The notes below the pieces were generated by a model that did not search any database, was not told where the DNA came from, and worked only from the letters and a program-made list of their open reading frames with translations. A stretch of DNA of 64,000 nt from Apostichopus japonicus (taxonomy: Eukaryota > Echinodermata > Holothuroidea > Aspidochirotida > Stichopodidae). Positions 1,852-58,664 of this stretch are shown here, in pieces. Each line of letters starts with the position of its first letter. The first letter of the stretch is position 1. Both the position numbers and the translations under genes were made by a program. The DNA lies in contig NC_092569.1 of NCBI RefSeq assembly GCF_037975245.1, positions 11,381,001 to 11,445,000 of the forward strand. Reading direction: 5' to 3'.

Positions 1852-4800
1852 CTAAAAGGGACGAATCTTCATTTCTGTATATTTGATGTTGAAATAACTG
1901 CCGGGTAAGTAATACCAATAAGGACTGCTATAACTACCTCGGCTGGCATGGTAGTTTCCATTGAGGTTGGAATAATGACAACTCTTGTACCACCAGGCAC
2001 CGTGATAATTAACAGCACAGTTAGAACTATAAACATCGTTGTCACTGTCCTTGGTACTGAACTGGTAGTTGAGGTGATATCGAAGAGCATAACCATCAGG
2101 GTTGCTGCGAGAGTCTGCAAAGAAGAACGAAGAACAGATATATAAACATTCTATCTAATGTCACTGAAATACAGACATATTGATTAGCTTGAAATGAGAG
2201 TTTAATTTATTAAGAGTTTCATTAAGAATTATCGTTTATGGTTCATTATTCCACTTATTGCAAATTAAATGTTATCTTTTTTTTTAAATTTTATACCACA
2301 ATTATATTTCGGTACTGCTGAATCACATATGCTGTAATATCTAAGAACAAAATATATAAAATAAAATACAAAACATGACGTATAATAAGGTGTATCAAAA
2401 GCGTTCATACTGTTTTCAATGAAATAAACCGCAGTAAAGTATGTTAACTAATACGGCATCATTGTTGCAAGTAAATGACTCAAAAGCAAACATTGTGGCC
2501 TGAAACTTGGTTTTGCCCTTCTGATACAGTTAAATGATGCTAATTTTAATTTTGTGCAATTGTATATTCGAAAAAAAGTATTGTATACATATTGCATGAT
2601 TTTTGCGTGGACGTGTGTGCATAGGTCAGTGTATAACAGAGGTTTCTATGTGTAGGTCTGAAAGTGGACAAGAACATGGTATGAGAATGATTCACTTTGC
2701 TGTTGATGTTTAATGGATTAGGTAATCTAATTAGTGTCTTTGTTTTACTTATTTATGAAAGGAAGGATACAAATCTCAAGAAGAGAAATACGGATAAATC
2801 AATCCATCCACTCGTCATCGTGTTAATATATTATTGCATTATCACTGCAAATCATTTATTTATGTAAGTCTTCGGTCAAATATATGTAGGAAACCTTATA
2901 ATATATTCCCAAGATAACACATAATAAAGAACATTTAACTACGTACAGACCGTAGAAGCATTTATAGTTTTAGAATTGTTCAAATATCTAAATGATGTGT
3001 ATGTAACCAACTAAATTGTAACAAACCCGCTGTTCCACTGTAGGTTCCAAGTTGAGATAACCGATATTTGTCGCTTTCGTCATTAATCCGGAAGTTGTCA
3101 AACTTGGCATAGTATGGAGTACCATCTCTGTTCACCAGATCGATCCTAATTTCATATCTCTTTTGATTGGTCAAGTTAGAAAGCTTATCATTTCCAAGCC
3201 AAAACTCGTGGTCTAATTCTCCAAAACCTTCTTTGTAGCTGTCCCATCCGAGGTAGAAATCCTCGGTTCCATCCACACGACGCTGAAAAACCTTTGTTTA
3301 AAAGTGTGAATAAGAGGAATACTTTTGTCATGATCAAATATAGCAAGCGATTAACTAAATTGTCAACATTCTTAGAAACATTAGAGTTGAATATCGTAGA
3401 CTTAAACGAATTTGAAGGAACTGATAAAGAAAAACCTCTTTAAAACATTTTTATTTAATTTATTTCCATTACATAGATCGTTCGTTCTACTGCAGATATT
3501 AGCCTGTAATGAGAGTATGACAAAATGACAATTCGCTTGAAAGGGATCTTTAAATCGTGAGAGAGCAGATACATAGTAATGGCTTCAGTGTGGATATTTT
3601 TCCTGAAGGAAAATACAGTTCAGTATTTGTTCACTATAAGAATATATTATATTTGCATATTTTACTGGTCGTTTTATATTCGATATAGAATGGAACAGGG
3701 TTATTTTGATATATGGTAACTGTGGTTTAAAGTGAATTCATTAAGAACGAATATCCATTTTTATTTATAGCCTTGTATCAATAACGGTCACTACACTGGT
3801 TTGTGATTTTGTTTGTCTATTCTACTACAATCGACCAGAAGGTATATTCTATGACTGTTGTACTTGTGTGCACAACAGTGCTTTGTAGTGCAATGTAATG
3901 CATTGTATTTTCTTACGTGCAGCTAGGGTATTGATTGTGTTTGTTACAGAACAATGTAGTGTAGTATTGTGTGTTCATCGTGGTTCAATATCTAAAGTGT
4001 AGTTTAATACAGTGTATTACCGATTAAGTGTGATCAATGCGGTTATGATCAATGGAATGACTTACCGTCCATCCTCCTCCGTCAGACATGTTGCAGTAAA
4101 CCTCAAAGGCCTCGCCGGTCCACCCAGTTGGTTTGATTCTGTATATATCGTTATCCACGGATCCATCCTCGTAAATTTCCTGACAATCTTTAGGATGGCA
4201 TGCATATTCTTCATCCCATGTGATCTGCCCGTTGGTACAAACACCTTTTCTTGTACATCCAGGGTTCACGTAAGAGCCACCTTCCTGAAACACAAAATTA
4301 TTCTTTACTTTAATGTTTACAGATTATATTTAACCCTGATGTTGTTTTTCTTATCATCCATGGTAAATACTGTTCTGTATTGTAATGTCCCTTTGTAAGC
4401 ACTAAAATTCCCTACGCGGAGTAAACTATAATTTGGCAGGTATTCCTATAACTGCTTAGTTGAATGGACTCAAAAATAATTCATATATTGGAATTTTATT
4501 GAACTTATATTGCATTCATTATAAAAGATAATATTTTCAGTGACTGACTGGTTATATGGAGAAAGCTTAAACAATGCTGTTGTTTGCAGAATAGTTGTTG
4601 GAAACTGTCATAGTGAATATTCTTTGACATATAGCTCCAGATTTGACTGCCTAAAAGTTTACAAATCAAATGAAAAACAAACAACTTACTGGAATAACTG
4701 TTTGTCCCTCTGATTCGTAACATCCACACTGTTCTTGAGGTACACAGTCTGATCCCTTCATGAAGTATCCATCGGAACAAACACAGGCTTCGGCATCATT

Positions 4801-6929
4801 ACAGACCCCATCCTGACACACTTCTGGAGCACGACAAGTCCGCTGACAGGAGTTACTGCAGTTTCTATAGACCATGTTGTAGGGACAAAGTGTTATAACG
4901 TCTGCGGGAATAAATATGTCGGTAAAATTGAAACATATTGATGATGTAAACTTCGTTGTGTATTTTAACTGCAATGAATATGCTGTGAAACTTGTATCAA
5001 ATGTCAATATTACAACATACTCCATCAGAAAAACAAACACATGGCCAGGTGTAAATGATCTCTAGCGATATCATCATATATTGTTATTGTTCTTAGATAA
5101 GCTCTTAACATACGTGGCAACTGTTTACCTGACAAAACTGAATCCATTAGTTGTCAGCCTAAAAATGAAGAAGTAATTTCCTTAAGTTACTGTTTCACAT
5201 AATAGTAATACAAATAGCAAATGGAAGGTACAAGTAACACTGATGATTGGGTAAACATGGGCAGACCCACGAAGTAAACAGTAAGGCAGTGTGGCACATG
5301 GGTCGTTAAAGCTGATTCCCATGTAGAGGAATCTGCGGTCGCTCTCCCAGAAAAAAGTTTCGACTTTAGATTGCCGATTTAGGCTATAAATTATGTCTAA
5401 TATTAGACTTTTAGTTAAGAATGTGCCAATAACTACAGTTGTTTGTGTTTGCGTTGAAGGGGAGGGGGTGGGGGTGGGGGTCATCACAGGTTTCTGGATC
5501 CGCGCATGATACAGCTATATGAAGTTCAAGCTGCCAATTGTGGTGAACTAAAGGTCATCTGACCCGATAACTGGGCTAAGGGGAACAAATAGTAAGGATA
5601 TTAAGCAGAAATGTTGATATTACTTACCTGTTCTTCCAGAAAAATTTCCGAGACTGAACAACTTGAAGTTGCTGAATTCATCACTAATGCGGAAGTTATC
5701 GTAAGAAACACGGATTAAGGAACCATGTGATGATGTCATCTCAATTACCAATTGATACTTCTTTTGATTGGTCAAGTAAGAAAGCCTCTCATTACCGAGC
5801 CAGAATTCCTGAGATAAAAAGCCGAAGCCAGACTTGTAGCTGTCCCAGTCACGACTGAAGTCGATGGAGCCGTCAATGCGACGTTGTATTACCTAACAGT
5901 GTAAATGATTTAGGAAATGATATCAAAGTCATTAATGTGTGTATTGTGAATATACGTCACTAGAAATCATTCTTTTGGCAAAGATAGTCTTTAATGCTAA
6001 ATATCAGGATACGCATGCTGTGTATTATGTATGCGCATCTACATATTGTGGTATCACACGGAAAAATTGGTAAATAAAAAGGGGGAGGGAAAGAGAAACA
6101 GAATAAGAGAGAAAGAAACATGTAAAAGTAAATCGACTGTAGAGACCTACCGTCCATCCACCAGAACTGTCTGCGTTATCACAGTAAACCTCAAACGGTT
6201 CTAGATAACCATCTGGTTTGATCATGAAGACACCAGTAGAGTTATGAGATGAACATTGCTCCTGGACTTCTCTGCAATCTCTCGGGTAATTCGATTGTTG
6301 GTAGAAGAAAAACGACGAACCTAGTACGTCCAAGAAAGTAAATTGGTTTGCTTTTGAGAGTTGATAAACAGTGAAGTTTATATAAAATGTAATTGTTATG
6401 TCTAACTAGCATGCGATGAATCTAAATATTAGCGTATTATAATATTAATGTATTTAGCACGCTGTATTGCCTGCTCTAGCTGATATCCAACTTATCATTT
6501 GAAGGACACAAATCTTTCGAAATCGAAAGAAAACGAAAGGTAAATTTGTATAAAACATTCACAAGAAATGATCACTGAATGTTAATAATAATTGCTAAGG
6601 AAGTAACATCATAAATATAACATAAACCTATGTATTCAAACAATTCTAATGATATTTAATTATGACGTCTTACCTGAAGACTTCACTTACATAACATTAA
6701 AGGACTGCAAAGTTAACTTACTTAAACTATTATCACTGACCGTTTAATAACCACTGATTAGGAAATAGCATCATAATTATAACGTTAATCCACATATTCG
6801 TAAAATTGTTATGTTACTAAATCATGACGTCATATTTTGATAACTCATTTACATAAGATTAGAGGCCTGCCAAGTTCACTTACCTACACTAGTATCACCA
6901 GTGTTGTCATTGATTGTCTGTAGAGCATC
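1852..6929 (-). CDS. fibrinogen-related protein A: partial FBG - TIL - TILa - full FBG (5' exon missing)
   Basis: Seven exons on the minus strand: 6929-6884, 6320-6151, 5892-5628, 4901-4690, 4284-4066, 3291-3027 and 2114-1852. All are bounded by AG/GT and joined in phase into 480 codons including the stop. In order they encode a 15-residue linker; a fibrinogen (FBG) start (NYPRDCREV...GGWT); the FBG middle (VIQRRIDG, EFWLGNERLSYLTNQKKY); a ten-cysteine TIL domain (CPYNMVYRNC to QEQCGC); a TILa-like segment (EGGSYVNPGC) running into a second FBG start (DCQEIYEDG, CNMSDGGGWT); a second FBG middle (VFQRRVDG); and the FBG C-terminus with Ca-site DSDND, then NCAVNYHGAWWYKSCHYSNLNG, ending EMKIRPF. 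The first FBG domain lacks its C-terminal exon; the TIL exon replaces it in the same phase. No signal-peptide exon was found upstream, although the 6929 exon starts in phase 0 as expected after one. Probably a secreted lectin-like protein; ligand unknown. Confidence 0.85.
5459..5480 (+). other. G-quadruplex motif in an intron of gene A
   Basis: Four tracts of four or five G separated by single A or T bases, a textbook quadruplex pattern on the plus strand (C-rich on the coding strand). It lies in the intron between the first FBG-middle exon (ending 5628) and the TIL exon (starting 4901). This is the junction where the usual C-terminal FBG exon is absent. Confidence 0.6.
6594..6915. repeat. 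~160-bp tandem duplication containing the linker exon of gene A
   Basis: Two head-to-tail copies, about 6594-6756 and 6757-6915, share blocks such as the AT-rich region around GACGTC and the CACTTACATAA/TTTACATAAG stretch followed by ACTTAC. The right copy carries the functional-looking 46-nt linker exon 6929-6884 with a GTAAGT donor. The corresponding stretch in the left copy (about 6722-6765) keeps a TAAGT-like end but has in-frame stops on the minus strand. It looks like a decayed duplicate of the exon. Confidence 0.5.
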
Positions 6930-23937: not shown

Positions 23938-26030
23938 TATTTCAACATAACATAACTTTGGAGGTTTGAGTGTGTGGAATAGTTGAGAGGTAAGTGTAGA
24001 CGTGTGCGTGAGTTCGCGCAAGAGAGTGTGTGGAGTATGCGAGGGATATGATTTCCTTTTTAGCAATTCGGCGTTCTGGTTTCGATCAGACATACCCAAC
24101 AAAGAAAGAGACAACGTAAAATGCAAAGACTTGAAGTAGATACAAAATTGTAGAGGTAAGTTTAGAAGAAATCTTGAATCCTTGAAATCACGCAGATATA
24201 AATAGAAAATACCAAACAAATATGAGAAACAAAACAAAGTAAAACCGAAAGTTCATTACTACTGTTTTCTCTACAAAACTGACCGGTTACACTTCACACC
24301 TCACACAAGAAAAATTGAGAAGAACAGGCAAAAAACTTACCTAAAATACTTTCTCAGATGTATATGTGTTTAAACGTTCGACCAATAAAGCCAAACCCAG
24401 GTAGATATCATTACCTTAATCGATTTTTAAACAGTATTTCTACTCGTCAGTCACGTCATACATTCGTAACGCTCAAATCGATTACCCAATCAGCGAGACT
24501 TGTTCATCAATGTTCCAACGTTTAAAAAAAACTCCCTGATTATACACATCCCCGCTGGCAAATATCTTTCTAAAGCATACATCAATTAATGTATGCCTAA
24601 CTGTGATAATAATATAAAAGCCACTTATTACATATACATTTGGTAAGCTTTCATCATATTGATCATGCGCATAAGCTGTAGCTTAAAGTACACATTTCCT
24701 GCTGCAGTTTGGCAAGTCTAGTCATCGTTGTTGTAAGTGTGAAGAGGGTAAGCTGAAAACAGATAATGTCACCCAGGAAAAATCCTGGGCAAGAAAACCA
24801 AACAACCGAAAGACTGTTCCGCTCTGAACCCCAGTCCCCTTGCATCGAGCCTGTTAATGTGACTGTCCAAATTGAAATTGAACGACCCCCTAAATGACCA
24901 AAGCAAATTTACAATGGGTTTTTACAGACATACCAGGTAATGTCCAAATTGAAACGACCCCCTAAATGACCAGAGCACACACAATATGTCTACTACGGAT
25001 ATTGTAACAATTTTAGGTGCAGTGATAAGTACCCAATGAGTAGGTGAATTGACATTGTTTATACTTATTGAGATTGTACATTTTAATGAGTGGGAGGGGT
25101 CAAAATAAAACTTCCCCACCAGAATCTTTACTGAGATGTTTTTTTTTTTATGGGGTGGTGTTGAAGCGGGGTGAGGATGGTTGTGGGGAAAATTACAGCT
25201 ATGACATAATTGAGTGAGTGAGTATGACTTCATGTAAATTTTTTGTTTTCAGTTTATCTTACAATTAGACTAACAATTCCATCTGACTTCTCCACCTCTC
25301 CCTCATCCTCCACCCGAATATCGATTCGAAAACATAATTCAGGTGCGACAGTTAACTTCACACTCATTTGATGAAGGAGGCAGTTGCCATTCAGCACAGA
25401 ACAAGAGGAGTAAAAACAGGAGGAGGAAGGGGTAAGGTCGTAACGTAGTTTTTCTTGCAGCTCATACATTTGCCAAACAAAAAGAAGAAAAGCATGTTCA
25501 AAGATGAAAAAATCATTTCTTTTTTAAAAATTGATTTTGTGTCTTTCAAATTTGCTAGGAGGAATCATGACATATCTTAAAATGGAACAGATGCTGGTTA
25601 CTTGTTATTCAAGACAAATTGAATTCCTCTTACTGAAATTTATTTATTTTTAACGCTCGCCGAAAGGGCAAGAACTATCTGAAATGCCGCAGCTCCTAGG
25701 GATTCGTCCCACCCCTGTCTCACAGCCGATGACAGTGTACACAGTCGGATATACCTGCTGTGAGTCTGCATTAAACGATTTAACAGAAATTGACGCTTTT
25801 GTTGGCGTCTTTTTCGAAACGTTGCTAGAATAGTCAACGAGTGTCTCAAAATAGCTAGTTGGTTTTGAAATCGATCAACAACTTCAGAAAGTGTTGTATG
25901 TACGTAATATCATAATCTGTCCTGCGAGATTATCGGGACTAAGTAGGAGTGCTATCATTAAGGCTTCATAATCATAATTTGGATAGCAAATGGTAATAAA
26001 GGACACAAGGCCCTTATATCCCCAACCCCC
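23938..26030. other. intergenic DNA between dispersed repeat copy 1 and the exon satellite
   Basis: No exon is called. A short direct duplication is visible: GTCCAAATTGAAA followed by ACGACCCCCTAAATGACCA occurs near 24865 and again near 24942. A minus-strand open frame at 25469-25254 is of unknown significance and lacks domain or splice support. Confidence 0.4.
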
Positions 26031-26064
26031 AACATCGTCTATGATATTGGATGTCTCACTTGAT

Positions 26065-26531
26065 TTAACGTCCATCCTCCTCCTTCAGTCATATTATACG
26101 TATGTAAATTATCGTCTATACTATAAAGTTGTCTTACAAGATTTATCGTCCGTTCTCCTCCGTCGGCCATACTTCATAAATATACAATACATCGTCTGTA
26201 CTATATGATGCCATACTAGACTTACCGTCCATCATCCTCCGCCAGTCATATTATACTTATGTAAGTTATCGTCTATACTATAAAGATGTCTTATTTAATT
26301 TAACGTCCATCCTCCTCCGTCAGTCATATTATACTTATGTAAGTTATCGTCTATACTATAAAGATGTCTTACTAGATTTATCGTCCGTTCTCCTTCGTCG
26401 GCCATACTTCATAAATATACAATACATTGTCTATAGTATAGGATGCAATACTAGACTTACCGTCCATCATCCTCCATCAGTCATATTATTCATATACAAT
26501 ACATCGTATATGTAATAGGATGTCATACTAG
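26065..26531 (-). repeat. 78-bp satellite made of a FReD exon 3' end plus splice donor, six units
   Basis: Six head-to-tail units start at 26065, 26143, 26221, 26299, 26377 and 26455; five are exactly 78 bp and the last is 77. On the minus strand units 1, 3, 4 and 6 contain a reading like NMTDGGGWT followed by GT, the same as the 3' end of the FBG-start exons (compare 4066-4110, CNMSDGGGWT then GTAAGT). Units 3 and 6 keep GGTAAG exactly at the donor position. Units 2 and 5 are a diverged variant with CCGTTCTCC in place of CCATCCTCC. Units 1-3 and 4-6 resemble each other in order, implying a 234-bp higher-order repeat. A partial unit precedes the array near 26031. It lies about 330 bp upstream of the signal exon of gene B, on the opposite strand. 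Confidence 0.85.
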
Positions 26532-26866
26532 ACTCATTCATTTACATCTTCATTTACTTCCTCGTTTAAAATTACGTCAGTCGCTTGTAGACATGCGCAT
26601 TAGAACGCTGTCACACCCAATCATGTCACTCCGAGACATTTCGTAGCTTCTATTTACATACATTCTAACGGAAGACTAGAAGGGACTTGTCAAGATGGGA
26701 TGGGCTAGTAGTCGCAAACGTCACGTAATACGATGAAAACCTTTCAAAGTTTCCACAAGCTTCTTCGGTACTTACTTTTCGAGAATTTCCGCATTTGAGG
26801 TGAAACGGCGAAGATAATTCCTGAAGATAATCTCAGGTATTATTCGTAAAGCACAGGGCTCGCAAG

Positions 26867-27465
26867 ATGGAGTACCAAAGAAGGGAGCTTTTCTGTGTCA
26901 ACTTTTTCACATTGTTGATGGGATGGAATGTCTTTGCATTCATAACGGTAAGTTTCTCAAAAAAAAAAATGGTCTGGTTGGGTGAGATGTCTTTAGGCTA
27001 TGGACTGCATACAAAGATTTACAATTCTGTTATTTTTTACAACAAAGATCATCTTGGGTAAACTTTCAAAATTGAATCTAACAATGTGCATTTATTATCA
27101 CTGCAATGTTTGTAACACCAAGTTGCATTTACCATAACTGATACTGAAATACAGTTTACAATTTTTGGAGAAGGTATTCAATAATTTCAATAATTTGGCA
27201 TCTCAGCTTTTCAATTATCAAATGATAAAAATTAGAAATAGTAAAGGTGTTTTGATAGGTGATGTAGATTAACTATCAGTTAATTGAAATAGTTATTTAA
27301 CGAAACACTCAGATGGAGGCTTCACTTCTATTTTCTTTCGTTGAATTAGCAAAATCAACTGTTCTTTTAAAACTATTATACATTTAATTTGAATACGTCA
27401 ACACATCCACAAATTTATATTTAATATTTAATTTAATTTTTTATTTTTATCTATCTATCTATCTA

Positions 27466-27511
<46 letters not shown>

Positions 27512-30500
27512 TAAATATATATGTTTATGTATACAGTACACTATACACCTCATGTTGGTAATGTGTCAAGAAACTCATTCTTTAAAATATTACTGTTAAC
27601 GTTGACGACGCTTTATACTATTTTATGATAAAGTTAAAAATCCAATGCAGATTAAGGAAACTGTCGAAGTAATGCATTAAACACCTAGGACGTCCGTTAT
27701 ATAACTTTATAATTAATCACACACAAGACCAAACTTATTCTGATTCAAGAACGAATCATTTTTCTGGTTTAACAAAATGATATATCTGACAATCTGCAAA
27801 GCTTCACAGGCTTTCAGTTATGCTACGACAAAAATCTGTGGTTAAAATACCAAATATCAGCATCATCTTTTACCTCGGCCTTTTTGGTTACCAATTCATC
27901 CTTGTGTTAAACCCATCTCCGTAATCGCTTTTACAGATATGGCACAAGGTCACAGAAAAATTGCCTGCAGCATTGTGTTCTAAGAACATGAGAAACGTTA
28001 ACTATAGCTGTATACGTGGTGGTAAAATTTAGGGTGTTATCTTCAAGTTTATGTTTATTGTCGATTTATACAGCTTTCCTGTTCTATTGATATAGCAGAT
28101 TTTTAACTATAAGTAAAGCTACACATCAGGGGTCACTGAGCCGAGTTGTGTTCTAAGAACTTTACAAATACATGGTAAACGCATAAGTTGATGACAATGT
28201 GATGATTACATATTGAGGTTCACTCCATTGCAATTTATGTATATTTTAATAATTGACCGCTCTGTTCTGGACATACCAAACAGATTTGTAATGTTACATA
28301 AAGCTACACATCAGTAGCCACTGAGTTCACATTGTCGGTATAACTTCATTTCATGCTCGCAGAGAATATCGCAATTTGGTGGATAATGAAAAGGTTAAGA
28401 CATTAGATTTAACAAATAAATGATCAATGTGCACTTATACTTGCCAGAGCGATATTTCTCTATACAAATGACTTGTCCAAGCGGCTAAGCGTTGATTCCG
28501 TTCATATGAAACAGCATTTCCATTTTATATCCAGATACCAGATAATGGTACTGAGTTAAATTCATGCGATCTAATAAAATTCATTATTATCTTTTCCAGA
28601 ACATAGGGATTGAGCATCTGTTTTTAATTCCCACAAAGTCTTTGTTCACTGCGATAGGATCTCGTGCCAAGAATGTCTATTTAATTTTATTACGTTTTCC
28701 TGTCGAACGTTATTGACACTTTGCCTTAGTTTGTTGGGAGACTGTAGTGAGAAACTGATCTGGAAACTTCCAAACACAATGAAAATGTTGCTTCAGAAAA
28801 CAATGAAATGATAACAAAAATGAGTGAAATGAAATATAAACTATAGAGCGGTAATAGTCATCTCGCATCATATATTTTTGTGTAAGCTCTGTACATCATC
28901 AAATCGAAACGAAAAGAAATATATTTGCCTATTACAACATTGTCTTGAGAGAGAAAGAAAAGCAATCGTAGAATGTGCTGCTCACAAATATCAAATGTTT
29001 CCTACAAAAAGGAAAATCATATACCGACATGGGAATAGACAAAGAAAATATGTTTTTGGCAATTGTTGTTATTCTGAAGATACCTGAATCTGATAACGTG
29101 AATATGACCTTTGAGACGACCGAACACTTTGTCTAATATGTTGCTTTAAGAAAAGAAAAACGGTTCTTTGTTCCAGAAATGGCTTTTTAACCCGACCTTC
29201 TATACGTTAGTTGTTGCCGTAAATACTATTGTTTTGTTTAGATTATGTATTTAGAATTTGCGATCATCTCAATAGTAATGACAATTTGACGCACTTCATC
29301 ACAGAATTAATGCTTTAATATTTAATAAAGTGAAAGGAAACATAAACACATGATTGAACCTATCTTATACTCGAACAATTCATGATATTTATGTGCATTG
29401 AGGATATAAAGATCAGTATATACGTTCATTGTCTTATATGCAGGCTTCTCCTGACGTTACAGATCAATCATCGAGTAAGTTACCATTTGATATTGACTAT
29501 AAGTATTTTTGCTTACACTTTAGCTTAAAATGATTAAAAAGACCCTTAGCGATTCCAGGTGTTAGTTCTCGTATTTGAAATTATCGTTACGTTTGTTCAT
29601 TAATGTAGATCTTCAGGATAGATTTAATATCAGAAATTGGAACCAAAATTGTTATAACATTTAATACAAATTGTTGAGGTAGGTGGAAATGTAAATCAAT
29701 GACAGACACTATAGCTTTCTCGATCTTTTTAAATGTTGTTAAGGTGATTTGATTGGCCCGCTGAGTAATCGGCGTGTCAACTAACTGGGTAATTGTTTTC
29801 ATGAAGGGAAAGACCTACATGTAAAAAGGACCCAATACAAAATTAAATGAAACAATTGGATGACTCTTCCTTAGCAGAAATGCTGGTAGACATTATTACA
29901 ATTAAACATTTACAGGTTTATAATCGAAAAAGTAACCTATACATCCATAGATACTGATGGCTGCAGAAGAAAAACAGAAAGTTCATGTTGCTTTTATCCG
30001 TTATATCCTGAAATAGGTTTATCTTACTTTATATTTCCATCAACCGAGAACCCGAAAGATTGCCACGAAATCCTCAATACATGTTCAAATACCCAAAATG
30101 CATCTGGTGTCTACAAAATCAAACCTGCTGGTTTCCCAAAGGCGTTCGAAGTGTACTGTGATAACGACTTAGACAGTGATGGATGGACGGTAAGTTGAAA
30201 ACGTTAGCTAACGTTATAATTAGCTTCAAAACTTTAAAATAATGCTGCACTAGTCAATAAAATAGACCAACGGATACCTAAAACAACCAGGAACTTTATT
30301 ACTGACATTTTTTGCGTTTCTCTTCGAACAACAGGAGACCCAGTTTTGATTGTACTTCATTAAGCAGCATTAAAATGTCATACCAACGTAGTAAACGAAG
30401 TTAATGCTGTTCAAAAGCATTAATTATGTTAATCAAAATCTTGAAACCTGATAAATTTAGAATGTTAACTTAATTAAGACAAAGTTCTCCGTACTAAGAA

Positions 30501-33500
30501 TTTTCATCAAAATATATCTTTGTTGTAGAAATATTATTTTGTTCTGTAGATAATCACTTCTGCTGTTGCCAGATGGATTTGCAAATATCATGGAAACTTG
30601 AAATTATCAAGACTTTGCGTTGGAAAAATCCTATGAGTATGTGGTTTTTGGCAAAAATACTCAGAAAATTTTCATCAATTTTGCCAAACAATCAGTTCCA
30701 ACCGTCAAAAGAAAACCAAATTCTCTCCATTGTGGAAGATATGAGCATAGACCTCCTTCATTTTTATTACGACAGGTAATACAGCGACGGACGCATGGAT
30801 TCATCAACTTTAATCGGAATTGGTTAGATTACAAGCACGGTTTTGGATTTTTGGGAAGTGAATTTTGGTTAGGAAATGAAAAAATCGCTCACCTAACAAA
30901 TCAAAAGAAGTACCAACTTCGTTTGGACTTTACGAATGCTGCAGGGCACTCGTATCACGTGACCTACGACGATTTTCGTATCGTTGGTGAATGGAGCCAA
31001 TATTCTATTCAAAGTCTTGGAGACGAAGGTGGCAATGCAGGTAAAGGTCCTGTTTTAGCATGTAGGTTTTATCTCAACGAAGCACGATTTTCAATCTTAT
31101 TTCATGTTTTCGTTAGAATTATATTAAAAGAAGACAATGTAGGTACGTGCAACGTTTCTCTTCATTTGTTGAAAGATTATTTTAGAGTTTCTAGTAGAAT
31201 TATTGAAACATATATTTATCACCCAAGAAGAGAAAAAATCAGAGCACCAACATTTGAATAGAACTATTAAACTTAACGTAATAATAGAATTTAACAATGT
31301 CCTTGTCGTTGTCAAGAAGTGTTGCTTACCATAACTTTAATACGGGTTAATCTTTTCACATCCACCACTGTCTGTACTGTAGGTGATAAAGGGTTTATTG
31401 GCAGCGATTACGACATTATTTCTGAACCATAAAATAATTTCAAAGCGTCAAACCACCAAGTCAATTTTAAGATTATTTTTTCTTTTACCTTCACCCAGGT
31501 CCATTTATTAAGTGGTGTCCATCGAATACGAGGTTTGCTAACAGTACATGTGAGAGACGTTGTACCGAACCAAATACGTGTATCACTTTAGCATCTATGG
31601 AATCAGGACGATGCATCTGTCCAGACGGTTATATGATACAAGCAGAGGACTGCATACCTGAAAGTCAGTGTGGATGCTTTGTACAAGAAAAGGGAAGTGT
31701 GCTGAATGTAAGTCAATGCATCAGTGAAAAGTTTGTTTTTTCTCATTGAAGCTGCTCCAAAGATATATGCTGATTTTGTAAACTTCTTCCATAAGCTAAT
31801 AATGGTATGGAAGATTTTGCAGCACTAGTCAATTCCTCATTTCCACATGCTGTATTACTTATATTTACGATGTTCTTTCTTTGCTAAATCTTTCAGTTTA
31901 CTCTTTGCATATATTATTCTATGAACTATTAATGAGCATTACGTGAAAAAAACACTGATTATGGTAATGTGACTTTAATTCATTAGTGACAAGTGATTCA
32001 GCAAATAGGTTTTTGATAAACTGAAATTGTTAAAGTATATTTTCCACGACAGGAAGGTGACTCATATGTCAATTCTGACTGTACTTCCCGTGTAAACTGC
32101 AGCCATAATCGGCTGATTCATGAAGACAACTACCGGTGTAGTGATGATGCAACGTGTCAGGGGAGAGACGGTGTTCGAAGATGTATTTGCAACGATAGAT
32201 TTGAAGGAGATGGGATAACGTGTATTCGGAAAGAGCCCCTGAAGGATTGCTACGAGATATACAATACAGGGATCCATACCGATGGGGTTTATACTATCTA
32301 TCCTACTGGCTGGGAGGATTCTGGCTTCCAGGTCTACTGTGAGATGTCAACAGAAGGAGGAGGATGGACAGTAAGTCTTCACATTTCACAAAAGAGTGAT
32401 AACTTCTAACCGCCTTGATCGAGTTGAACGCAGGCCTTCGGGCAGTACAGATCTAAATATATATTAAAACAAGGCACAACGAAGCTTCTTCTCGATTAAA
32501 CATTACAATTTAGTCGATATATCGAGTAGATTGTGTCTCAGCGTGTCTAACGTTGAATATCTATTGAACTTCACACTCACCGGAAAGATGATTTCACATA
32601 ACAAATTGGAGTGTTTTGTTTTGCTAAGTGTGTTTATTGAGCGAGATAAGTCCAATGCACTTACGATGTTTTATCGCTATTAGCTCTCAGTAGCGTAAGC
32701 CTTGTGTCGTCTTACAGGAAACAACTTCTAGACACAAATATCAGTATCTGAACAAAATGGTACTGGCTGGCCTAGCTTTCTTAGCGAGAGAAACGTGATC
32801 AATGGTCTGACACAATTTAAGAGCAATACTCTGCGGCAGAAATTGTTTGTTGGCGATAAACATCTCGATAACTTTCTCATAAAAATAGTAGCATTCTGAT
32901 CCATTTGCGCCATTTCAGATATGTGGCGATGCATGAGTTTTCCTGTTTATTTTCTTTTGTACAGTATTATACGATTTCCTCATCGTTACTACGTATTTAC
33001 AACACATACGTTTAAAACGGGTTGCGAACCAAATTCCTTGAAATGTGTGAGTGCGTTGCCATCCATCGGGTTTTGAAAAAAAATATCTGCTGGGCACTAG
33101 GTAGATATAATAAATAATATATCAGATAAAAATGTACGAGGAAACAATGACGAAAACAGCATTGGAACGATATTTAACTTTATATCATATTTATACCTTT
33201 ACATATTTCTAGGTTCTCCAGCGAAGGAGGTCTGGTTCAGTTAACTTCTATCGTGTTTGGAATGCATACAGGGAAGGCTTTGAAAGTCCAAGCGGTGATC
33301 ACTGGCTTGGTAACGACAAGATTCACGACCTTACAACTCAGAAGTCATACCAACTTAAGGTGGATCTGACAGATTCAGATGGTTTACAGTACTACGCCCT
33401 CTACTCCAGATTCAGCATTGGAGATGAGGATGACAAATATACGCTCTCTTTAGGCTCGTTCTCTGGAAATGCAGGTTGGTGTATTTTGCAACATTTACTT

Positions 33501-36261
33501 TATAAAGCTTTGGTTTGATAACTTTCGTTCTTGGTTTGGCTTACATTGCACAACACACTCCACAGGATTCACAGAAAAATGCTCGAAAAAAAGAAAGTTG
33601 CTAAGTGAAACAAAAAATATAAACATATAATATATAACCCCTTTTTACACTTGTTGTTACTCGTAATCTACTAAATCAGTATTGTCTTAAATAATGATTT
33701 TAACAAACTTCCAAGACATCGTGGCTAAATTATGTGAAGGGAATGGGAAACAAAGATGCAATCAAGTTAAATACAATTTGACCAGCCGCACGTTTGACAT
33801 CACTCACTCATTGCAAGATGCAGTTATCAAATATATCATAATTAAAACAAAACCTGTGCCTAATGCTATTCAATCCAAATGGCATAACTTGCTGATGGAA
33901 AAGACACGAACAATGATGACCTTAACTGTTCGAATCTGTAAAACTGGAAATTCAGAACAGTTTAAACATTTTAACCTTGACACAAAAACTGAATCTGCTG
34001 TAATAGATGTGGGCTAAGTTTATATCACTATAAACCAAATATCGCTTGTAGTGTGACTGTGATGCGCACTGGCGGATCCAAGAGGGGGGGGGGGGGGCAA
34101 CGGGGGCCATGGCACCCCAAAGGTGAGCCAAAAAGTGTTTCCGAACATCCGCTAAATCATATGATTGGAAATTCAAAAAATCGAGAGGAATAGCAGTGGT
34201 AGACTAGCAGTAGCAGTTGTGCTCGGCAATTCCGTGAGCTATTGCTCTGGAGTGGCTTTATGATATTTTTTTAGAAAGCTTAGTTCTTCCCAGGCTTTTT
34301 ACCAATAATAACATTCGTGTCGCGACAACGAAGGAACATTATAAAATCAAGATTAGCAATTTTAACATAAATGTATCATTCAGGCGAAAAATCCCTTGTG
34401 ACATTACCGAGTTTTATATGATAAAGAAATTCTTTCTCAAGCACATAGTGATCGCCTGCCAGACACAGACCGTGTCATTTAACACTTTGCAACTAGTGGG
34501 GTCAGGAGATTGAAGTTTAGTTTCAGGATCTGTAATTCTGCATAATTGACTGTGAATTACTACTTGCACTCTTAACATGTCGTACTATCATTTGTGAGAC
34601 AAATTCCCTTCCTTACTGGAACTTGCTGGGGGACAGGAAAAAGGCAATGCCTTGTAATAACCACCATGAACGAAAATTCCACTGCTGGGTAGCAACTAAG
34701 AAATGTTCCATGGTAATTCTTTATACCTGTCCATACTTCCAATTAGCCCCCAAAAGGTCAGGTCAAAGGTCATCAAGAGTAGACAGTCAAGAGATGTCTA
34801 CACCTATTCGTTTTCTGGTTAAAAGTAAATTGCTGTCGATATTTCATGACGACCACGCCCTTTAAATGTATGAAGATGAGGATTTACAGTTTATCACCAT
34901 TTTGCATTTACAGGCTGGTTGTAAGAAATTGATAACCTATGAAAAGTAAAATTTCTTGAGAAAGATGATCCCAACTTTGTTTTATAAATATTTTAGAAAA
35001 TTACACCTGGGAAAATTGTTTTATTAGAAGTAAATTAACATCACCCTTGTACACTTTTGTCGCACCAAATTGCATCTGAGGGCATTCAGCAATAGAAAAT
35101 TGTCCACCCCCTCCCCTAAGACCCCTCCCCCATATCACTCTAACGCCACTTTGGCCCGTCCCGAACAAAGGCCCTGGATCCGCCAGTGGTGATGTGCGAT
35201 AGAGTTGCGTGGTTTGGCGGGATCACGACCACTACACCAGTCTATATTGGTTTTAAATTCCTCTTTATTGTTATATTTAGAAGTTTTCAATGACAACGGT
35301 GTTCATATCATGTCCTATTAATCACTTTACTATGATATCATTAATCTGAACAAATACAATGATGTACATAATTTAATCGAATGTGACTCATGCACACCAC
35401 ACATTCGGAAGTGATGATATTGACACCAAATGATGTGATGTTAAATTGGTGAATGTGTCTCTCAGAGGCGAAAACAAGTTTTGAACTAATACAAAATTGG
35501 GTAGTTATAATCTCGTTGCCCAAAAGACTTCTTGAAAGATACATTTTATCCCTTTAGATTTGCCCTGAAACAAATTCATCTAATCGCACATTTCTTTCAC
35601 TTCCGATGAATTGAGTATATTGGAAAACCTTTATGTACGAACCTGGCTTACAGAAAGAATGAAAGCGTATAGTTTTCAAACCGAAGTAGCGATAAATTAT
35701 ATCCAGCCCCCCCCCCCTTCACTATAAATAACAATACTTACTTTTGCACTTAAACAAAATCATAATAATATTAACATACAAGCAAGTACTGAATACTTGC
35801 AAGCATTTTTACATATAAATTAAAGGTTAAATACGGTTATTAAATGAATTTTAGAAGATGTTTAACTGACAAGAAATTCCTACGATGTTATGGTTTGAGT
35901 TTTTCAGTTCCCTTTGTATGCGATGCTGATTAAATACGTCCTCATTTCCATCCTTTCAGGTTATAACTCTATGGGCTTGAACTCCGGAAATCCGTTCAGC
36001 ACGCGCGATAGGGACAACGATGGCACGGATGATTGCAACTGTGCACAGAGGCATCAAGGTGCATGGTGGTACCATCATCGTTATCATAATGATAACAATC
36101 ATTGCTTTAAATGGTATGGAAATGGATATTACCGCCATTGCACTTATGCTAACCTCAACGGAGACTACCAATACAACGACTACCGCGGAATCTTCTTTTA
36201 TAAACTTTCTGGGAACGATTGCGGTATCGCGGGTACAAAAATGAGGATACGACCAGTTTGA
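26867..36261 (+). CDS. fibrinogen-related protein B: signal peptide - partial FBG - TIL - TILa/EGF-like - full FBG (546 aa)
   Basis: Eight exons: 26867-26947, 29444-29474, 30017-30189, 30776-31040, 31499-31707, 32053-32370, 33213-33474, 35960-36261. The splice sites (mostly GTAAGT) and phases join into 1641 nt. Exon 1 encodes a leader (MEYQRRELF...LLMGWNVFAFIT) and exon 2 a ten-residue linker. Exons 3-4 form a truncated FBG domain (NPKDCHEIL to DGWT; VIQRRTHG, EFWLGNEKIAHLTNQKKY). Exon 5 is a TIL domain (CPSNTRFANSTC to ESQCGC). Exon 6 carries TILa (EGDSYVNSDC), an EGF-like stretch (CICNDRFEGDGITC) and the second FBG start (KDCYEIYN to GGGWT). Exon 7 is the FBG middle (VLQRRRSG, HWLGNDKIHDLT). 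Exon 8 is the FBG C-terminus with Ca-site DRDND, GAWWYHH, NLNGDY and end MRIRPV. It shares the architecture of gene A but has an added EGF-like stretch, two fewer TIL cysteines and an insertion after GAWWY. Probably secreted; ligand unknown. Confidence 0.88.
27449..27521. repeat. (ATCT)n(AT)n microsatellite in intron 1 of gene B
   Basis: About five ATCT units run into a long AT dinucleotide tract with a few interruptions. It is an intronic simple repeat and probably length-polymorphic. Confidence 0.9.
32835..33095 (+). repeat. ~260-bp duplicated segment, copy 1 (intron 6 of gene B)
   Basis: The segment from GGCAGAAATTGTTTG through TACAGTATTATACGA to TTGCCATCCATCGGGTTTTG recurs in the same orientation at 36746-37040, just beyond the 3' end of gene B. 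The copies differ by substitutions and an AT-rich indel. No coding potential is conserved. Confidence 0.8.
34067..35188. mobile_element. 1.12-kb non-autonomous hAT-like transposon in intron 7 of gene B
   Basis: Terminal inverted repeats CACTGGCGGATCCAAG at the left and CCTGGATCCGCCAGTG at the right bound a 1122-bp segment. Flanking octamers GTGATGCG (34059-34066) and GTGATGTG (35189-35196) match at seven of eight positions, as expected for an aged 8-bp hAT target duplication. A long G run and a matching C-rich region lie just inside the ends. Open frames inside are short and show no transposase motif, so the copy is non-autonomous. It lies entirely within intron 7 and should not alter the product if that intron is spliced normally. 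Confidence 0.82.
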
Positions 36262-42030: not shown

Positions 42031-45000
42031 TCAGGCTATAGAGCGAATTTTCATTTCCGTATACTTTATGTTACTTTGGCTTCCAGGAAGACCTTGCCAA
42101 CTAATACTCTGATGACATTCATCGCAGCCAAAGTAGTCACCGTTGAGGCTAGAATGGTAACAATTCTGGTACCACCAGGCGCCATGGAAATAGACAGCAC
42201 AGTTCAGACCAAAAGTAGTTGCAACATCATTGTCATTGTCATAGGTGCTGAATGACATATTTCGATGATAAGAAAGCGCGTCAAAAACTGTGGAAAACAA
42301 ACGTACTCAACTTCAACAGTTGCTATGATAAAGAAGCTATGATTGAAAGAGTTTGGGAGTCAAGTGAAACATCAATTTGACAATCTGAATGAGCAAGTAT
42401 ATTATAGTTTTACTGCTTTTACATTCTAATTGTATGTTTTAGGGGTTGTTTACCGACATACCGGCATACCTCCTTGACCGAAGTACCTTCAGGTTGAGGT
42501 ATCGATCGCGCCGTTTACATCTTCAAATTGATCGCGAATGGTGCTAGTTTTGTCCAAGCCCGGCAAAATGCATCGCTTAGTTAAGTGCCCTCGCTTCATC
42601 GGCTTGATCATTGGCCTTGATACAATCAGTTAGGCCCGGTGCTCCCTTGTTCTTATCAATATGCTTATAGGACAATTACATTATTCTGTCACAAGAGAAA
42701 TAAAAGATCTCCTCTTCAAATTAAAATACCACTCTTAACTTTGGAATTGTCCTAGAACTCATTGATAACCTTCATCAAGTGCACACACACTCAGCCCTTC
42801 ATCTTCATTTCTCCTCACTACCCCACGCGCTCATTACTTATGAGTCTGTCGCGTATAAAATAAGGAGGTATTTTTTCAGCATAGTTATTGCAAATATTTG
42901 ACACTTTAGTAACTGTGGAGATTCTAGGTTACGTTTGCCAAGGCAAATATCTGTAGAATTTCTGGCTCCACAATCCATTTCATAGTATATATAAGTTTCA
43001 TCTTGGCCAATGTATTTTCCTATCCATTTAAATTTTGAATGAATCTAAAGATACCAAGTACCAACCCTGTTTGATCTTGCTCACCCATCTTTAAAATAAT
43101 ATTAACTGTTGTATTTTGTTTGAAAATTTCGGCCGCGTTGCATGAAGCATGTAGCAACAGAAAAAAATCTAAGGGCTTCATAAAAAAGACAAAAGAGTCT
43201 TCTTACAATCACATTACGACTAAACAAAATGAAAGATCTTACTTCAACCACCTATGAAAATATTAACACACCTGCTGTACTCTCAGGCAAGAAAGAACCT
43301 AGGTCCACCATTCGGTACTTCGACCATTCGTCACTAATGCGGAAGAGGTTGTACTTTGCGTGATAGGCGTTTCCGATCTTATTAACGAGGTCGATCCGAA
43401 GTTCGTATTCCCCCTGATTGGTCAAGTAAGCCAGTTTGTCGTTACCAAGCCAGAATTCACGTTGTAAAAAGCCAAAGCCTTCTCGATATTCAGCCCATGT
43501 ACGGTTGAAGTCGACATCGCCATCCATTCGACGTTGAAATACCTTTGCAAAATCCGAAAACAAAAATTAACCGTGAAGTACATTGGGACTTGACATGGGA
43601 GATAACCGTATAAGTGAGGTTATCCGTGTTTACACCGGTTTATGTTTTGCTCACGATTACTGACACAACATTGTGACATCATCCAAACACAAAACAAAAC
43701 AAAATAACATAAAACATTAAAACACAAAAATTAGGTACTCAATGCAACATAAGAAGCAGTCATTGTCATTCATGAAAAGCTAGAAGCCAATCATATAATA
43801 GTTTGTGTTTGTTTCTTTCAATAAGGCATGTTTCTTAAAAGATGTCAATGAAATTATGTTGCTATATTGCTCGATGCGGTTGAAAATCAAATGAAAACTG
43901 TTCCTCTTCTCGAAAAAACAAAATAGATGGCAATCTTTGCAAGTGCAATGCTAGGCCAAACCGTCAGCTCTAATGGTGGATAGAACGTATGCCGCCAACG
44001 GACACCAACATAGGATCTAATCTTACAGCCTACTCACCGTCCATTTACCACCATCAACTGAATTATTACAAAACACGTTGAAAGGTTCTGGTGCACCATC
44101 AGGCTGAATCATATAAACTCCAGATTCTTGAGTTTGAAATTCGCAACGATTGTCGTAAACATCTTTGCAATCTCTTGGATATTGTGGTTCTTGATAGTAG
44201 AAACACGCGTTACCTAAAACGTTATTCAAAAATAGCAGAAACGATTTAATCAAAGATGTTGCTGATTGCCCTATTATAATATCATGTCAGTATATATCAA
44301 ATTGTTCATTTATTCAAGCCCGAATTATGTATTTCTTAATCAGGAGAGGTAATGGAAACCTTGGTCAGCAAAATGCGCTTTACATATTGTATTCTCACTT
44401 CAACAATTCTGAAGTTTGCAACAAAGTCGACCGCTTATAAAGTATACCCCTCGGTGATTCATGCATCCCTAACCAGTGAACTGCTTCTGTAAATCTGTTC
44501 ATTTTGTGTCTATCATTTTCATTGGTCTGAATATTATTGTAACTTTATTGAAATATATTGAATAACCTCAATTTCTTTCTGATTTTCACTGAGTAAAATA
44601 TTAGTTACACTTGAACACAACTTCCAGCAGAGAACTTACACTCAGAGCTTCTTCTCACACGTGAATTGCCATGATGAATTGGGTTTATCTTTGAAGGAAA
44701 AAAAAGGAAACTTGTCAACTAATGAAGGCGGTGGGATTAAAAGAAAGTACTACAAGTGGCACGGGATGAACACTCTTAGTGTCAATATTGTTTCATTTCA
44801 AGTTAACTTCCCTGAAACCACTAAAGTGCTTGATATGCCGGATAACTCCACTATGGACATATAAATATTACAATGTCTTCATATTAGATCTGATAAGGGG
44901 AAAGAAACCTGTCTGATTCCTTCATGCTACCCTCCCACTACCTGCAATCCACTGGTTTGAATCCGGGACGTAGTCCTGTAAACGTATTTTACCTGCATAT

Positions 45001-52048: not shown

Positions 52049-55000
52049 ATGCTAGATTACCTGATAACTGTTACCGTCGTTACTTTTTCTATACTGGCTG
52101 CTGGCTTCCTAATGATTTGCGATGGACAGGTGGTAAGTAGTTCATCTAGCAATTCATCACCAAGAGAGCATAATTAGTTCTTTTTTTTTATTTTGACACT
52201 ATATACACAGCGCTTAATTACTCTCCGACCATTGCAAAAAACATGATAACTTTAATGTCAATATTGAACCAGGCGTGGTAATAAGTACAATCTTAATAAA
52301 CTTAGTTATCAGAACTAATTTATAGTCTAAATTTGATACAGAATGCGTCATATGAAGTCTAAATTTAATTTTTTTCTGGGAAATTGCCACTATATGAGAG
52401 GCCTCTTCAAGAAAACAACGGCCACATCCTTGCTTTTCTGAAATCCTGATCGGTGATCATCTCTGATCGGTGATAATTAAAATAAAATACTATATAATGG
52501 ATATCTCCGATTTACAGGTGATTCAAAGTTTGCGGCAATGAAAATAATCTGTAAAGTAATATAATATGTTAATGAAATTATTTTACAGGATGCTTCCCTT
52601 CTTCGAATATAAATTTGCATTAATATAAGCCCCTTGGGTTAAATAATTTGTATTCATTCTTGGTCGGTGCTTATTTAAATGAAATACTATATTATGGATA
52701 TCTCCGAGGTACGAGTGATTCAAAATTTGCTGCACTGAAAACTATCTGTAAAGATAATATCATAATTATGTTAATGAAAATATTTAACAGAATTGCTTCC
52801 CTACTGCAAACATAAATTTGTATTAATATAAACCCCATGGGATAAATAATTTGTATTGATCTTTGATCGGTGCTAATTAAAATGAAATATTATATTATGA
52901 ATATCGCTAAGGTACAGGTGATTCAAACTTTGCGGCACTAAAAACTATATGTAAAGATAATATGATATGTTAATGAAAATACTTAACAAGATGCTTCCCT
53001 ATTCCCACAAACTTTTTAAAAATACGAAAAAAAAAACGGTTGATTCTCTCTGTAATAAGTATTTTGGAAATGATACAAGCTGTGTAACTAGATCAATACA
53101 TATTGTTTTCAGTATAATGCAATAAAGTCGCTAAATCAATGATCTTTGGTAATTGATAATTAATATTCGATGTATGATAGCTGGCATGATAGATTGCCAC
53201 ATGAAAGCTAAAATCAACAAGACAAAACTGCAGCAGCACTGCAAATACTGTAACGAACGCCTCGTGTTACAGTATATCAATGGTCTTAGGTACTTGATTA
53301 TTTATTATCGATGCATGGCGACATTCACTATAGGGATTGTAAAGTGAAAGTTAATATCAACTATAGAAACAGTACAACAGCACTGCAGTTACTGTCATCA
53401 TAGTATCGTGGTATACAGGGGAGTAGCCTCTTATTCAAGGTGGACAAAGTTGGACAATTTCTCCCAAGGATAACCTAACACTGTTTACTGACTATATCTC
53501 TGGACGTAATAAGTTTAAGCAGTGACTTTTGCATCACTAAAAAATATGATGAAAACACTCTTTTTCACTCAAAATAAGATTTCAGCGGGTCATTTGATAC
53601 GTTTGTCAACGTTTTGTCACCAAATGAACAGTTTTACAGTAAGATATGATCCAAAAAGGAAACACGTGACAAGCTTTTGTTACATTTCGAGACAATTTTG
53701 TGTGGTTATTGCCATGTCACGTTTAAGATGATGCTCGATGCTGTAATAGATCAATTAGAGGATGTGAATATCCCCAAAAAGTGAGTTAATGAAGCTTCCT
53801 ACCAAACCAGGAACCAATAACAAGTATTGCGCACACAGTAGTTCTTCGTAGTGTCAGTTAACTCTTCTACCATTAAGTACACACTTACCACAATCATCCT
53901 GTTTGCTACTTAATTGCTATATTATTTTACACGCGGTTTTGATATATCGAGGGAAGTTAGTTTTTGTTAGTGAAATGTGTTAAATAAACGAAGAAGATAA
54001 TTCATCCCTCAGGCTGATATTAACACTCAGTCTATAAAAATGTTATTCATATTTTACTTTGTACTTATTCTATAGCTGATATTACCACACAAATGTTGTA
54101 TGCTCAGCAAATATTTCCTTTAGTCTTTGAAGCCTCATTTTACAAGTTTCCTGGATAATACCCTCATCCAAAATAAACCAAATATTATTTTTTCTGCATG
54201 ACGTATTAACACCACCTTCTGCATGGTAAAAGCCAGGAATCTTCATCTGAGAAAATATTGTTTACGTCAAGTCACAGGCATTTCCTTATTGGGTTTACCT
54301 AGCTCAGGGGGTAGCCAATTCTCTCATTCAATGTTGGCAGGGTTTGGACGAGTTTCCAAAATTACAAAAAATAACAAAATTTCAACTATGGCTTTCCCAT
54401 CTATTTCATGTCAATATTGTTCATTCACCGGGACGTTGCCACCACCCACCTATATAACCGTGGATAGACTAAACTCGTATTTTTTATTATTGTTAATCAC
54501 GGAAGGAAGTAGATTGTCAGTGCAGCACAGAATCAACTTTCATTTATAGGAGCATGTTATAGTTCCTGTTCTTTAGCATGAAGCATATCCATAGAAGCCA
54601 GGGTTTCGAGTTAGCTTTATCTATCGACGGTAAATAGGTAGTAGTAGTAGTAAGTAGTAAGTAGTAAGTTGAGTCTCGTCTATCCGATATGCTCAGTGAT
54701 AAACCTCCGCCACGTATCACGATCTTGCGCAAGTTTTATTGCTTCCTCGAAATTGTTAATATTAATGCCCTTTAATTGCGATTTGATTTTTCCAAGCAAG
54801 GTAGTCACGGGCCTTCCAACTGGTTTAGCAGTATATCTCAGTGCTTCTCTTAAAGCAACCTTTGCTGGAGCGTCCTCCTGGAGTCTTGCTACATGACCGA
54901 AAAATATCAATCTTCTATGTGCGACTGGATGACCAAGGTGTTTAGTGGGTTTTGTTGTAGAGCTCATCATTTGATAACCAATTGTTATTAGTCCATCTAA

Positions 55001-58000: not shown

Positions 58001-58664
58001 ATCTTGTGACAGAATAATGTAACTGTCCTATAAGCATATTTATATGAACAAGGGAGCACCGGGCCTAACTGTATCAAGGCCAATGATTGATCCGATTAAG
58101 CGAGGGCACTTAACTAAGCGATGCATTTTGCCGGCCTGGGACAAAACTAGCACCATTCGCGATCAACTTGAAGAGGTTATCAGAGCGATCGATACCTCAA
58201 CCTGAAGGTAACTTCGGTCAAGGAGGTATGCCGGTTTGTCGATAAACAGCCCTTAAAACATACAATTAGAATATAAAAGCAGTAAAACTATAACATACTT
58301 GCTCATTCAGATTGTCAACTTGATGTTTCACTTGAATGACAAACTCTTTCAACCATAGCTTCTTTATCATAGAGACTGTTAAAGTTGAGTTCGTTTGTTT
58401 TCCACAGTTTTTGACGCGCTTTCTTATCATCGAAATATGTCATTCAGCACCTATGACAATGACAATGATGTTGCAACTACTTTTGGTCTGAACTGTGCTG
58501 TCTATTTCCATGGTGCCTGGTGGTACCAGAATTGTTACCATTCTCACCTCAATGGCGACTACTTTGGCTGCAACGACTGTCTGCAGAGTATTAATTGGGA
58601 AGGACTTCCTGGAAGCCGACACAACATAATGTATACGGAAATGAAAATTCGCCCTATAGCCTGA
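52049..58664 (+). CDS. compact fibrinogen-related protein D (fibrinogen-like protein A type), 278 aa
   Basis: Five exons: 52049-52132, 55955-56003, 56396-56571, 57154-57424, 58408-58664, totalling 837 nt in phase, with exon lengths identical to gene C. The leader is MLDYLITVTVVTFSILAAGF then LMICDGQV. The linker exon reads INPIHHGNSRVGRSTE. The FBG start has YPRDCKDVYNNGCDF and GGKWT; the middle has VFQRRMDGAVDFNRTW and EFWLGNDKLAYLTNQGEYEL. The C-terminus has DNDND, NCAVYFHGAWWYQNC, HLNGDYFGCNDC and end EMKIRPIA. It differs from gene C by scattered substitutions only, with no frame disruption, so both look functional. Intron 1 (52133-55954) contains a LINE fragment inserted against the gene's direction. 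Probably secreted and paralogous to C by inverted duplication. Confidence 0.9.
54632..55096 (-). mobile_element. 5'-truncated non-LTR retrotransposon (LINE) 3' end
   Basis: A minus-strand reading frame (55096-54680) carries the C-terminal tail typical of non-LTR retrotransposon polyproteins. It has RRLIFFGHVARLQEDAPAKV, then RPVGRPVTTLLGKIKSQL, then AIKLAQDRDTWRRFI, like the LGHVxRxxxDxxPxxAL...GRPxxxW...AxDRxxWR pattern after the reverse transcriptase. Past its stop, a short 3' UTR ends in a (TAC)n-like simple tail (about 54638-54668 on plus), as in RTE/CR1-type elements. The reverse transcriptase itself is absent. The fragment sits in intron 1 of gene D, opposite strand, and is missing from the left arm. 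Confidence 0.8.

Follow-up and report, generated by a model that had tools for sequence, protein, structure and literature searches.

The window, by which we mean the whole 64,000-nucleotide stretch analyzed here (contig C9 of the 671.6 Mb Apostichopus japonicus genome), holds a short tandem array that lies antisense to a + strand gene, upstream of a predicted signal-peptide exon (both the signal peptide and its link to the FReD exons from 30058 were judged by eye). A first-pass annotation had described this array as a satellite built from the end of a FReD exon and its splice donor. The question raised by the locus is how a row of exon/intron boundaries came to stand there, on the opposite strand. 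We give a probability of about 0.7 to the reading that, judging by the sequences compared below, the array is a displaced and decaying piece of a gene-borne minisatellite that was spread and homogenized by recombination.

In (-) sense the array consists of six units plus partial units at either edge. The ends given in the first-pass annotation, 26065 and 26531, therefore belong to a real array but do not mark its full extent (Table 1). Tandem Repeats Finder reported a period of 78 with 5.7 copies over 26050-26495, and a 235-bp period that fits better, with 92% matches over 26050-26489. The six units had been described as two trimers, and this arrangement was confirmed: the two trimers of ~235 bp match at 89% over 227 nt in the repeat search and at 88% over 235 nt when compared without gaps. 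A separate 203-bp tandem array of 2.7 copies was also found by Tandem Repeats Finder at 52457-53001 of the window.

The claim that each unit carries MTDGGGWT followed by GT did not hold. The motif (as MTDGGGWT or MTEGGGWT) is found in two of the six units (motif starts 26327 and 26092), and both continue with TTAAAT rather than GT. Two units (26465 and 26230) keep ACG/GTAAGT, where the slash marks the exon boundary, and in both a TGA stop replaces the third Gly. The other two (26386 and 26151) read MADGGERT or MADEGERT and continue with ATAAAT. Translations of the latter four units were made by eye. Thus a consensus 5' splice site is present in two of six units, and the array as a whole holds both motif and donor, yet no single unit has both intact. 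As a source of decoy donors, a role also proposed for it, the window array is therefore a poor candidate.

Table 1. Positions of the array and neighboring features in the window
Feature	Position	Strand	Remarks
Orphan array	26050..26534	(-)	two ~235-bp trimers, donors mostly decayed; Tandem Repeats Finder, repeat search, profile search
Unit-profile matches of the window array	26095-26032, 26171-26098, 26252-26179, 26330-26257	(-)	profile search
Unit-profile matches of the window array, remainder	26406-26334, 26487-26415, 26536-26491	(-)	profile search
FReD exon A without array (GSVDNDIYRIKPTGWTGEAFEVYCNMSDGGGWT), donor GTAAGTC	4057..4164	(-)	27 nt identical to genome-wide unit; profile match
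FReD exon A without array (YCEMSTEGGGWT, then GTAAGT)	32245..32370	(+)	exon A of the + strand gene
Predicted signal-peptide exon (MEYQRRELFCVNFFTLLMGWNVFAFIT, then GTAAGT)	26867..26947	(+)	333 bp downstream of array end; open in L009, L010
Left flank of array, common to paralogous segments of the same contig	24905..26030		flank search
Right flank of array, common to paralogous segments	26535..27440		longer rows 77-96% identity

Similarity to FReD exons was measured by aligning units to six exon ends of FReD type in the window. Scores were 58 for the genome-wide unit (see below) and 48 for the window unit obtained from Tandem Repeats Finder, both best at 4066(-), where 27 bases of the genome-wide unit are identical across the exon boundary. 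For each of the two units 1000 dinucleotide shuffles were scored; the top score was 27 and none reached the observed value. The same top score of 27 was obtained with 2132 77-mers taken from the window outside the array (8-30 kb, both strands), again with none reaching the observed values. A profile of the unit also finds the exon end at 4066(-), with a match at 4092-4057 (E 9.8e-5). The comparison with shuffled sequence was the check that could have gone against the first-pass description, and it came out in its favor (58 and 48 versus 27 or less): the unit does derive from the end of a FReD exon together with its splice donor, and by these alignments the window array is homologous to FReD exon ends. 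That an unrelated satellite should resemble a FReD exon end by chance has a negligible probability given these scores, and also given that at 30 of 40 loci the array begins directly at a FReD exon, as described next; nothing in favor of such a coincidence came to light. A chance motif was rejected because all shuffles and all non-array 77-mers of the window scored below the observed values.

The repeat is found across the genome. At least 232 matches to the window array were obtained at E <= 0.001, 39 of 88 candidates having been scored. Exact copies of a 35-base pattern comprising motif, donor and intron start number 463, as opposed to 0 for the reversed control. In long arrays the unit is mostly 77 bp, with a consensus containing AATATGACTGACGGAGGAGGATGGACG/GTAAGTC, which corresponds to an intact NMTDGGGWT and a consensus donor. 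In gene sense, 28 nt from the exon end are followed in the unit by the 5' splice donor and then by 43 nt of intronic sequence. Unit length had been stated to be a multiple of three; this is correct for the window period of ~78 but, since the genome-wide unit is mostly 77 bp, not for the repeat in general.

Forty loci, picked for the repeat, were examined (20, a further nine designated L050-L058, ten more, and the window). In 30 of them the start of the array is flush with a FReD FBG-start exon (exon A) that ends in NMTDGGGWT followed directly by the donor; AGNTTDGIYTIKPTNWTGDSFDVFCNMTDGGGWT is an example of such an exon. Flush arrays lie in the following intron with their units in gene sense, the last 28 nt of the exon and its donor serving as the first unit. 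Note that two of these 30 loci (L016 and L028) are near-identical duplicates, and that in L012 and L054 the last exon codon is altered (W-M, W-I). Eight loci are not flush: the window, L009, L010 and L076, which are promoter-like segments; L021 on C8; and L052, L053 and L057, whose arrays, as far as the 700 bases retrieved show, start in other sequence. L058 and L069 were assigned to neither class. L021 (C8:36.98 Mb) has ~48 units, with GAT and longer-unit variants of its own; no FReD exon was found in its 10-kb locus, and an exon A match lies ~50 kb off on C8.

Sixteen gene loci (L011-L020 and L022-L027) contain their array in full, with 7-67 unit-profile hits per array. Exon B lies downstream of the array in 15 of the 16, the intron is 1.0-6.0 kb long, and the array takes up 42-94% of its length. 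Two loci that were found via exon B, L043 and L040, have about 4 and 5 units, and exon A plus units are present in L061. Exon A was not found at L042/L063 or L048, nor at L038/L062, which has array units. The exon-flush arrays fetched are on contigs C2, C7, C9, C11, C18 and C21; C8 and C15 were added by a search whose query already contained exon and unit. When single exons, rather than assembled genes, were tested against Pfam PF00147 (Fibrinogen_C), exon B of array loci exceeded the curated cut-off, for example at C9:26670977 (L013), C9:28536363 (L011) and C18:8779099 (L018). A free satellite unrelated to FReD genes was rejected, because 30 of 40 loci are flush with the same kind of exon. 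Of the alternative description, a genome-wide satellite unrelated to FREP loci, the first half is correct and the second is not.

Several other sequence features were noted near these arrays or elsewhere in the genome. Other satellites adjoin FReD arrays, namely a ~105-bp family (periods 105-328; L011, L017, L024 and L025) and a ~87/173-bp family (L014 and L015). Other sequence breaks or abuts the arrays at L012, L014, L017 and L062, in L017 directly after the first donor. COX1-like pieces with in-frame TGA are present at C29:14745-31219, besides a full copy on C35, and may be nuclear mitochondrial DNA or unplaced mitochondrial sequence. The mitochondrial COX1 reads open under three genetic codes, of which the echinoderm code alone translates AAA as Asn at positions where Asn is conserved; in this respect the gene fits that code.

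Divergence of the units was compared with that of their host genes, all loci coming from the genome of one species. Among array genes, mean divergence is 26.7% at the fourfold sites of exon B and 18% over exon A (75 nt), whereas the 16 array consensuses are 0.48% apart. Unit distance is 6.9% between arrays versus 6.1% within one array. The between-array distance shows no correlation with the divergence of exon B (Spearman 0.09, p 0.39) and a weak positive one with that of exon A (Spearman 0.28, p 0.002). Only 14 of 229 distinct full units are seen in more than one array. Six of these depart from the consensus at two or more positions, and their sharing is limited to the close relatives L011, L012, L016, L024 and L025; the other eight are the consensus itself or single changes that could recur. 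Some unit variants are specific to a cluster, for example GTCTATAGTATGAC at C9 ~20 Mb. Downstream flanks of the arrays can be aligned, starting no more than 60 bp from the array, in 20 of 210 pairs, window included (E <= 1e-10).

Since silent sites are ~27% apart but consensuses ~0.5%, we infer that units are exchanged between loci. Judged by these distances, the units are younger than the host genes and derived from one common sequence. Exchange between copies, which had been suggested for this array, would be the simplest cause of unit likeness in the form of ectopic exchange, and repeated seeding would be the main alternative; between distant genes, it is the consensus alone that points to exchange. 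Selection on the whole unit would likewise preserve the consensus.

The genes that carry arrays fall within a single clade. In a FastTree phylogeny of exon B, a split supported at 0.947 has all 17 of 17 array genes on the same side, and the closest genes across that split, L041 and the window gene at 3025, are array-less. No array is present at the six exon A copies of the window or at exon A of L041, L046, L047, L049, L059 and L060. The genes of L044/L045 nest within the array clade and are array-less judging by L059/L060, which may reflect loss or a wrong branch.

A different origin would be a mobile satellite (in circular DNA, for example) that repeatedly inserts at FReD exon ends through homology to the 28-nt tail. 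Each insertion would rebuild the exon end and donor, and there would be no single ancestral array that was inherited and homogenized. We consider this unlikely, although several observations fit it: consensuses are near-identical in genes with silent sites ~27% apart, introns past the array are mostly unalignable (the 20 of 210 flank pairs above), and arrays occur outside FReD introns (L021 and the promoters). Against it are the restriction of carriers to a single clade and the diverged end units and cluster-local variants, which suggest long residence.

The history that we prefer, that of an inherited and homogenized gene-borne array, would begin with tandem duplication of the FBG-start exon/intron junction (28 nt + GTAAGT + 43 nt) in the ancestor of one FReD clade. 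Unequal exchange or slippage would have expanded the repeat within the intron to about 4-67 copies, with the first copy staying the working exon end and donor. The gene group would have spread over several contigs, with units meanwhile exchanged within and between loci, and ongoing exchange would hold the consensus constant while the host genes diverge. Pieces of array would also have landed outside introns, including the antisense piece before the + strand gene of the window. The comparisons show the anatomy of the arrays, their homology to exon ends, their flush position, the single clade of carriers, the near-identity of the consensuses and the orphan state of the window copy; unequal exchange and ectopic gene conversion are the means that we infer for these steps.

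Evidence on the displacement of the window copy comes from its flanks, a segment that is repeated on C9, and from paralogous segments at 11.0-11.7 Mb, which have antisense units at the same site. Profile hits at this site number 3-4 in each of L029-L033, four in L010 and seven in L009. By eye, L034 and L037 have one decayed unit each, at which the profile search (E <= 0.001) was silent, and no unit was seen at the paralogous site in L035 and L036. L076, a related segment at 24.2 Mb, contains two units, and the exact 35-base core is present in one of them. Exons A and B were not found at E <= 0.01 in the 10-kb L009 and L010 loci or in the window from 6.4 to 30 kb. Target-site duplications of the promoter insert were not discernible in the alignment.

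Because paralogous promoters have the same insert and no exon A or B was found nearby, the window copy looks displaced. Going by these alignments, a stretch of gene-borne array probably came to lie in inverted orientation before a gene and was duplicated together with that segment; it is now decaying, probably without function. It had been proposed instead that the array is the relic of a FReD exon lost on the spot. The minus-strand, FReD-like exon ends do adjoin FReD genes, but we consider an in-situ relic very improbable: no exon A or B was found beside the array in the window, L009 or L010; the upstream edge of the array is at the donor, not within the exon; and paralogous segments with few or no units are without a FReD exon (a short stretch, judged by eye). 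It was rejected because the search found no exon A or B nearby and because of the insert shared by paralogous segments.

The FReD exons of the window are themselves arranged in sets. Two stretches, 1855-6405 (-) and 30058-36258 (+), have a common exon order of FReD A-B, TIL-like, EGF-like and FReD A-B-C. In both, a partial FReD precedes a full one, which corresponds to one gene or two neighbors (domain labels by eye). An inverted pair of FReD exon sets is also present at 42034-44115 (-) and 56494-58661 (+), with protein identity of 96% for exon B and 88% for exon C. In a molluscan-type FREP, an immunoglobulin-type domain is joined to the FReD; the window genes have EGF-like and TIL-like exons, labeled by eye, near their FReD exons.

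To what extent intronic units could take part in splicing was judged from 428 of them. GT is kept in 414, as GTAAGT in 330 and as GTGAGT in 48, and each intact unit is, by its sequence, a good donor. In 24 of 24 genes tested, read-through of the first donor reaches an in-frame stop after 4-9 codons, and the use of later donors would therefore lead to truncated products. Divergence is 3.5% for exon-like, 4.2% for donor and 3.7% for intron-like columns, and the exon-like and intron-like columns do not differ over 17 arrays (Wilcoxon, p = 0.58). Since the three kinds of column diverge alike, there is no mark of selection on donors, and column divergence over the 428 units gives no sign that the exon or donor parts are conserved more than the rest. 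Synonymous, nonsynonymous and stop changes were observed 139, 228 and 19 times versus 102, 341 and 37 expected from intron-like columns; this nonsynonymous shortage leans on one CpG column and related units.

Functional arrays might act in two ways. Unit donors could compete with the real donor, giving unproductive truncated mRNA scaled to copy number, or they could recruit U1 snRNP and so shield the long intron from premature polyadenylation. The retention of GT, the read-through stop that would make products of later donors truncated, and the presence of this arrangement in many genes on several contigs are in keeping with such roles. Nevertheless, function appears quite improbable from these sequences, given that donor and exon-like columns are no better conserved than intron-like ones, that copy number spans about 4 to 67, and that two genes of the clade have no array. 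The arrays are explicable without any function.

The array may also affect the exon from which it starts. Across 24 array genes, the last seven codons of exon A show differences in 46 of 1335 fourfold comparisons versus 584 of 1939 for the upstream part of those exons. By parsimony on 17 genes, there were 2 changes at 5 tail sites versus 21 at 11 upstream sites (one-sided p = 0.012). Six of 12 tail fourfold comparisons differ among the closer array-less controls, which comprise three genes only, two of them outside the clade. The codons directly upstream of the unit in the exon are also fairly uniform. These counts suggest that the array overwrites coding sequence as well; the frozen silent sites may reflect conversion from the array, and constraint near the splice site may fit too. 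At the unit edge, 11 of 24 exons have AAC as the Asn codon versus AAT in intronic units, of which ~2% have a third base other than T, so the exon is not fully converted. It is doubtful, as judged from these patterns, that the array goes beyond this and serves these fibrinogen-related, probably defence-type genes as a shared template among paralogs on different contigs, rewriting the exon end while its copy number tunes productive mRNA.

No array of this kind in FReD genes was found in searches of the open-licence PMC literature. The closest precedent is the human IFI6 minisatellite. This minisatellite reportedly sits at an exon/intron boundary, and its unit is said to be shorter than 77 bp. 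It supplies multiple splice donors (Turri et al. 1995, cited in PMC4526556). The likeness is that of a tandem repeat providing donors in a defence-related gene. At 30 of 40 loci here, though not in the window copy, the repeat extends from the coding exon into its intron, and consensus 5' splice sites recur in the units (GT in 414 of 428 and GTAAGT in 330 of 428; two of six in the window). IFI6 is one human gene, whereas the 77-bp units are found in tens of FReD genes on several contigs and in displaced copies. Downstream donor use is reported for IFI6 in that excerpt (PMC4526556); donors here are known from sequence alone.

In the polyubiquitin gene UBC, splice sites are likewise repeated in register with a tandem repeat, as a tandem array of dual-specific splice sites with AGGT at each coding monomer (PMC10809524, in excerpt). 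AGGT in that gene is both a 5' and a 3' splice site, whereas our units have CG/GT, the copies are intronic and read-through leads to a stop. Dual-specific splice sites were rejected for the present arrays, as the consensus at the unit boundary is ACG/GTAAGT rather than AGGT. Expanded FREP families are described in echinoderms, for example A. japonicus (PMC5638244), which resembles the expanded and clustered fibrinogen-related family seen here; the excerpt of that paper makes no mention of an intronic exon-end array. The Sp185/333 genes of sea urchins, another family, are clustered immune genes with short tandem repeats of several kinds that are discussed as unstable regions, and repeats of an exon end plus splice donor are not described in the excerpt of that source (PMC5103432). 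The novelty lies in scale and spread: a 77-bp exon/intron boundary array occupies 30 or more loci of a single gene group, distributed over several contigs, is near-identical between loci and also has displaced copies.

For annotation, the arrays are a warning: dozens of consensus donors per intron and FReD-like repeat peptides may mislead gene models. For the gene family, they indicate that an exon/intron boundary can become a satellite, which a large gene group then carries in its introns and which is near-identical across contigs despite divergence of the genes. The system provides a test bed for how many strong decoy donors are tolerated per intron, for whether coding exons undergo ectopic gene conversion driven by intronic arrays, and for whether such arrays aid the turnover of large gene families.
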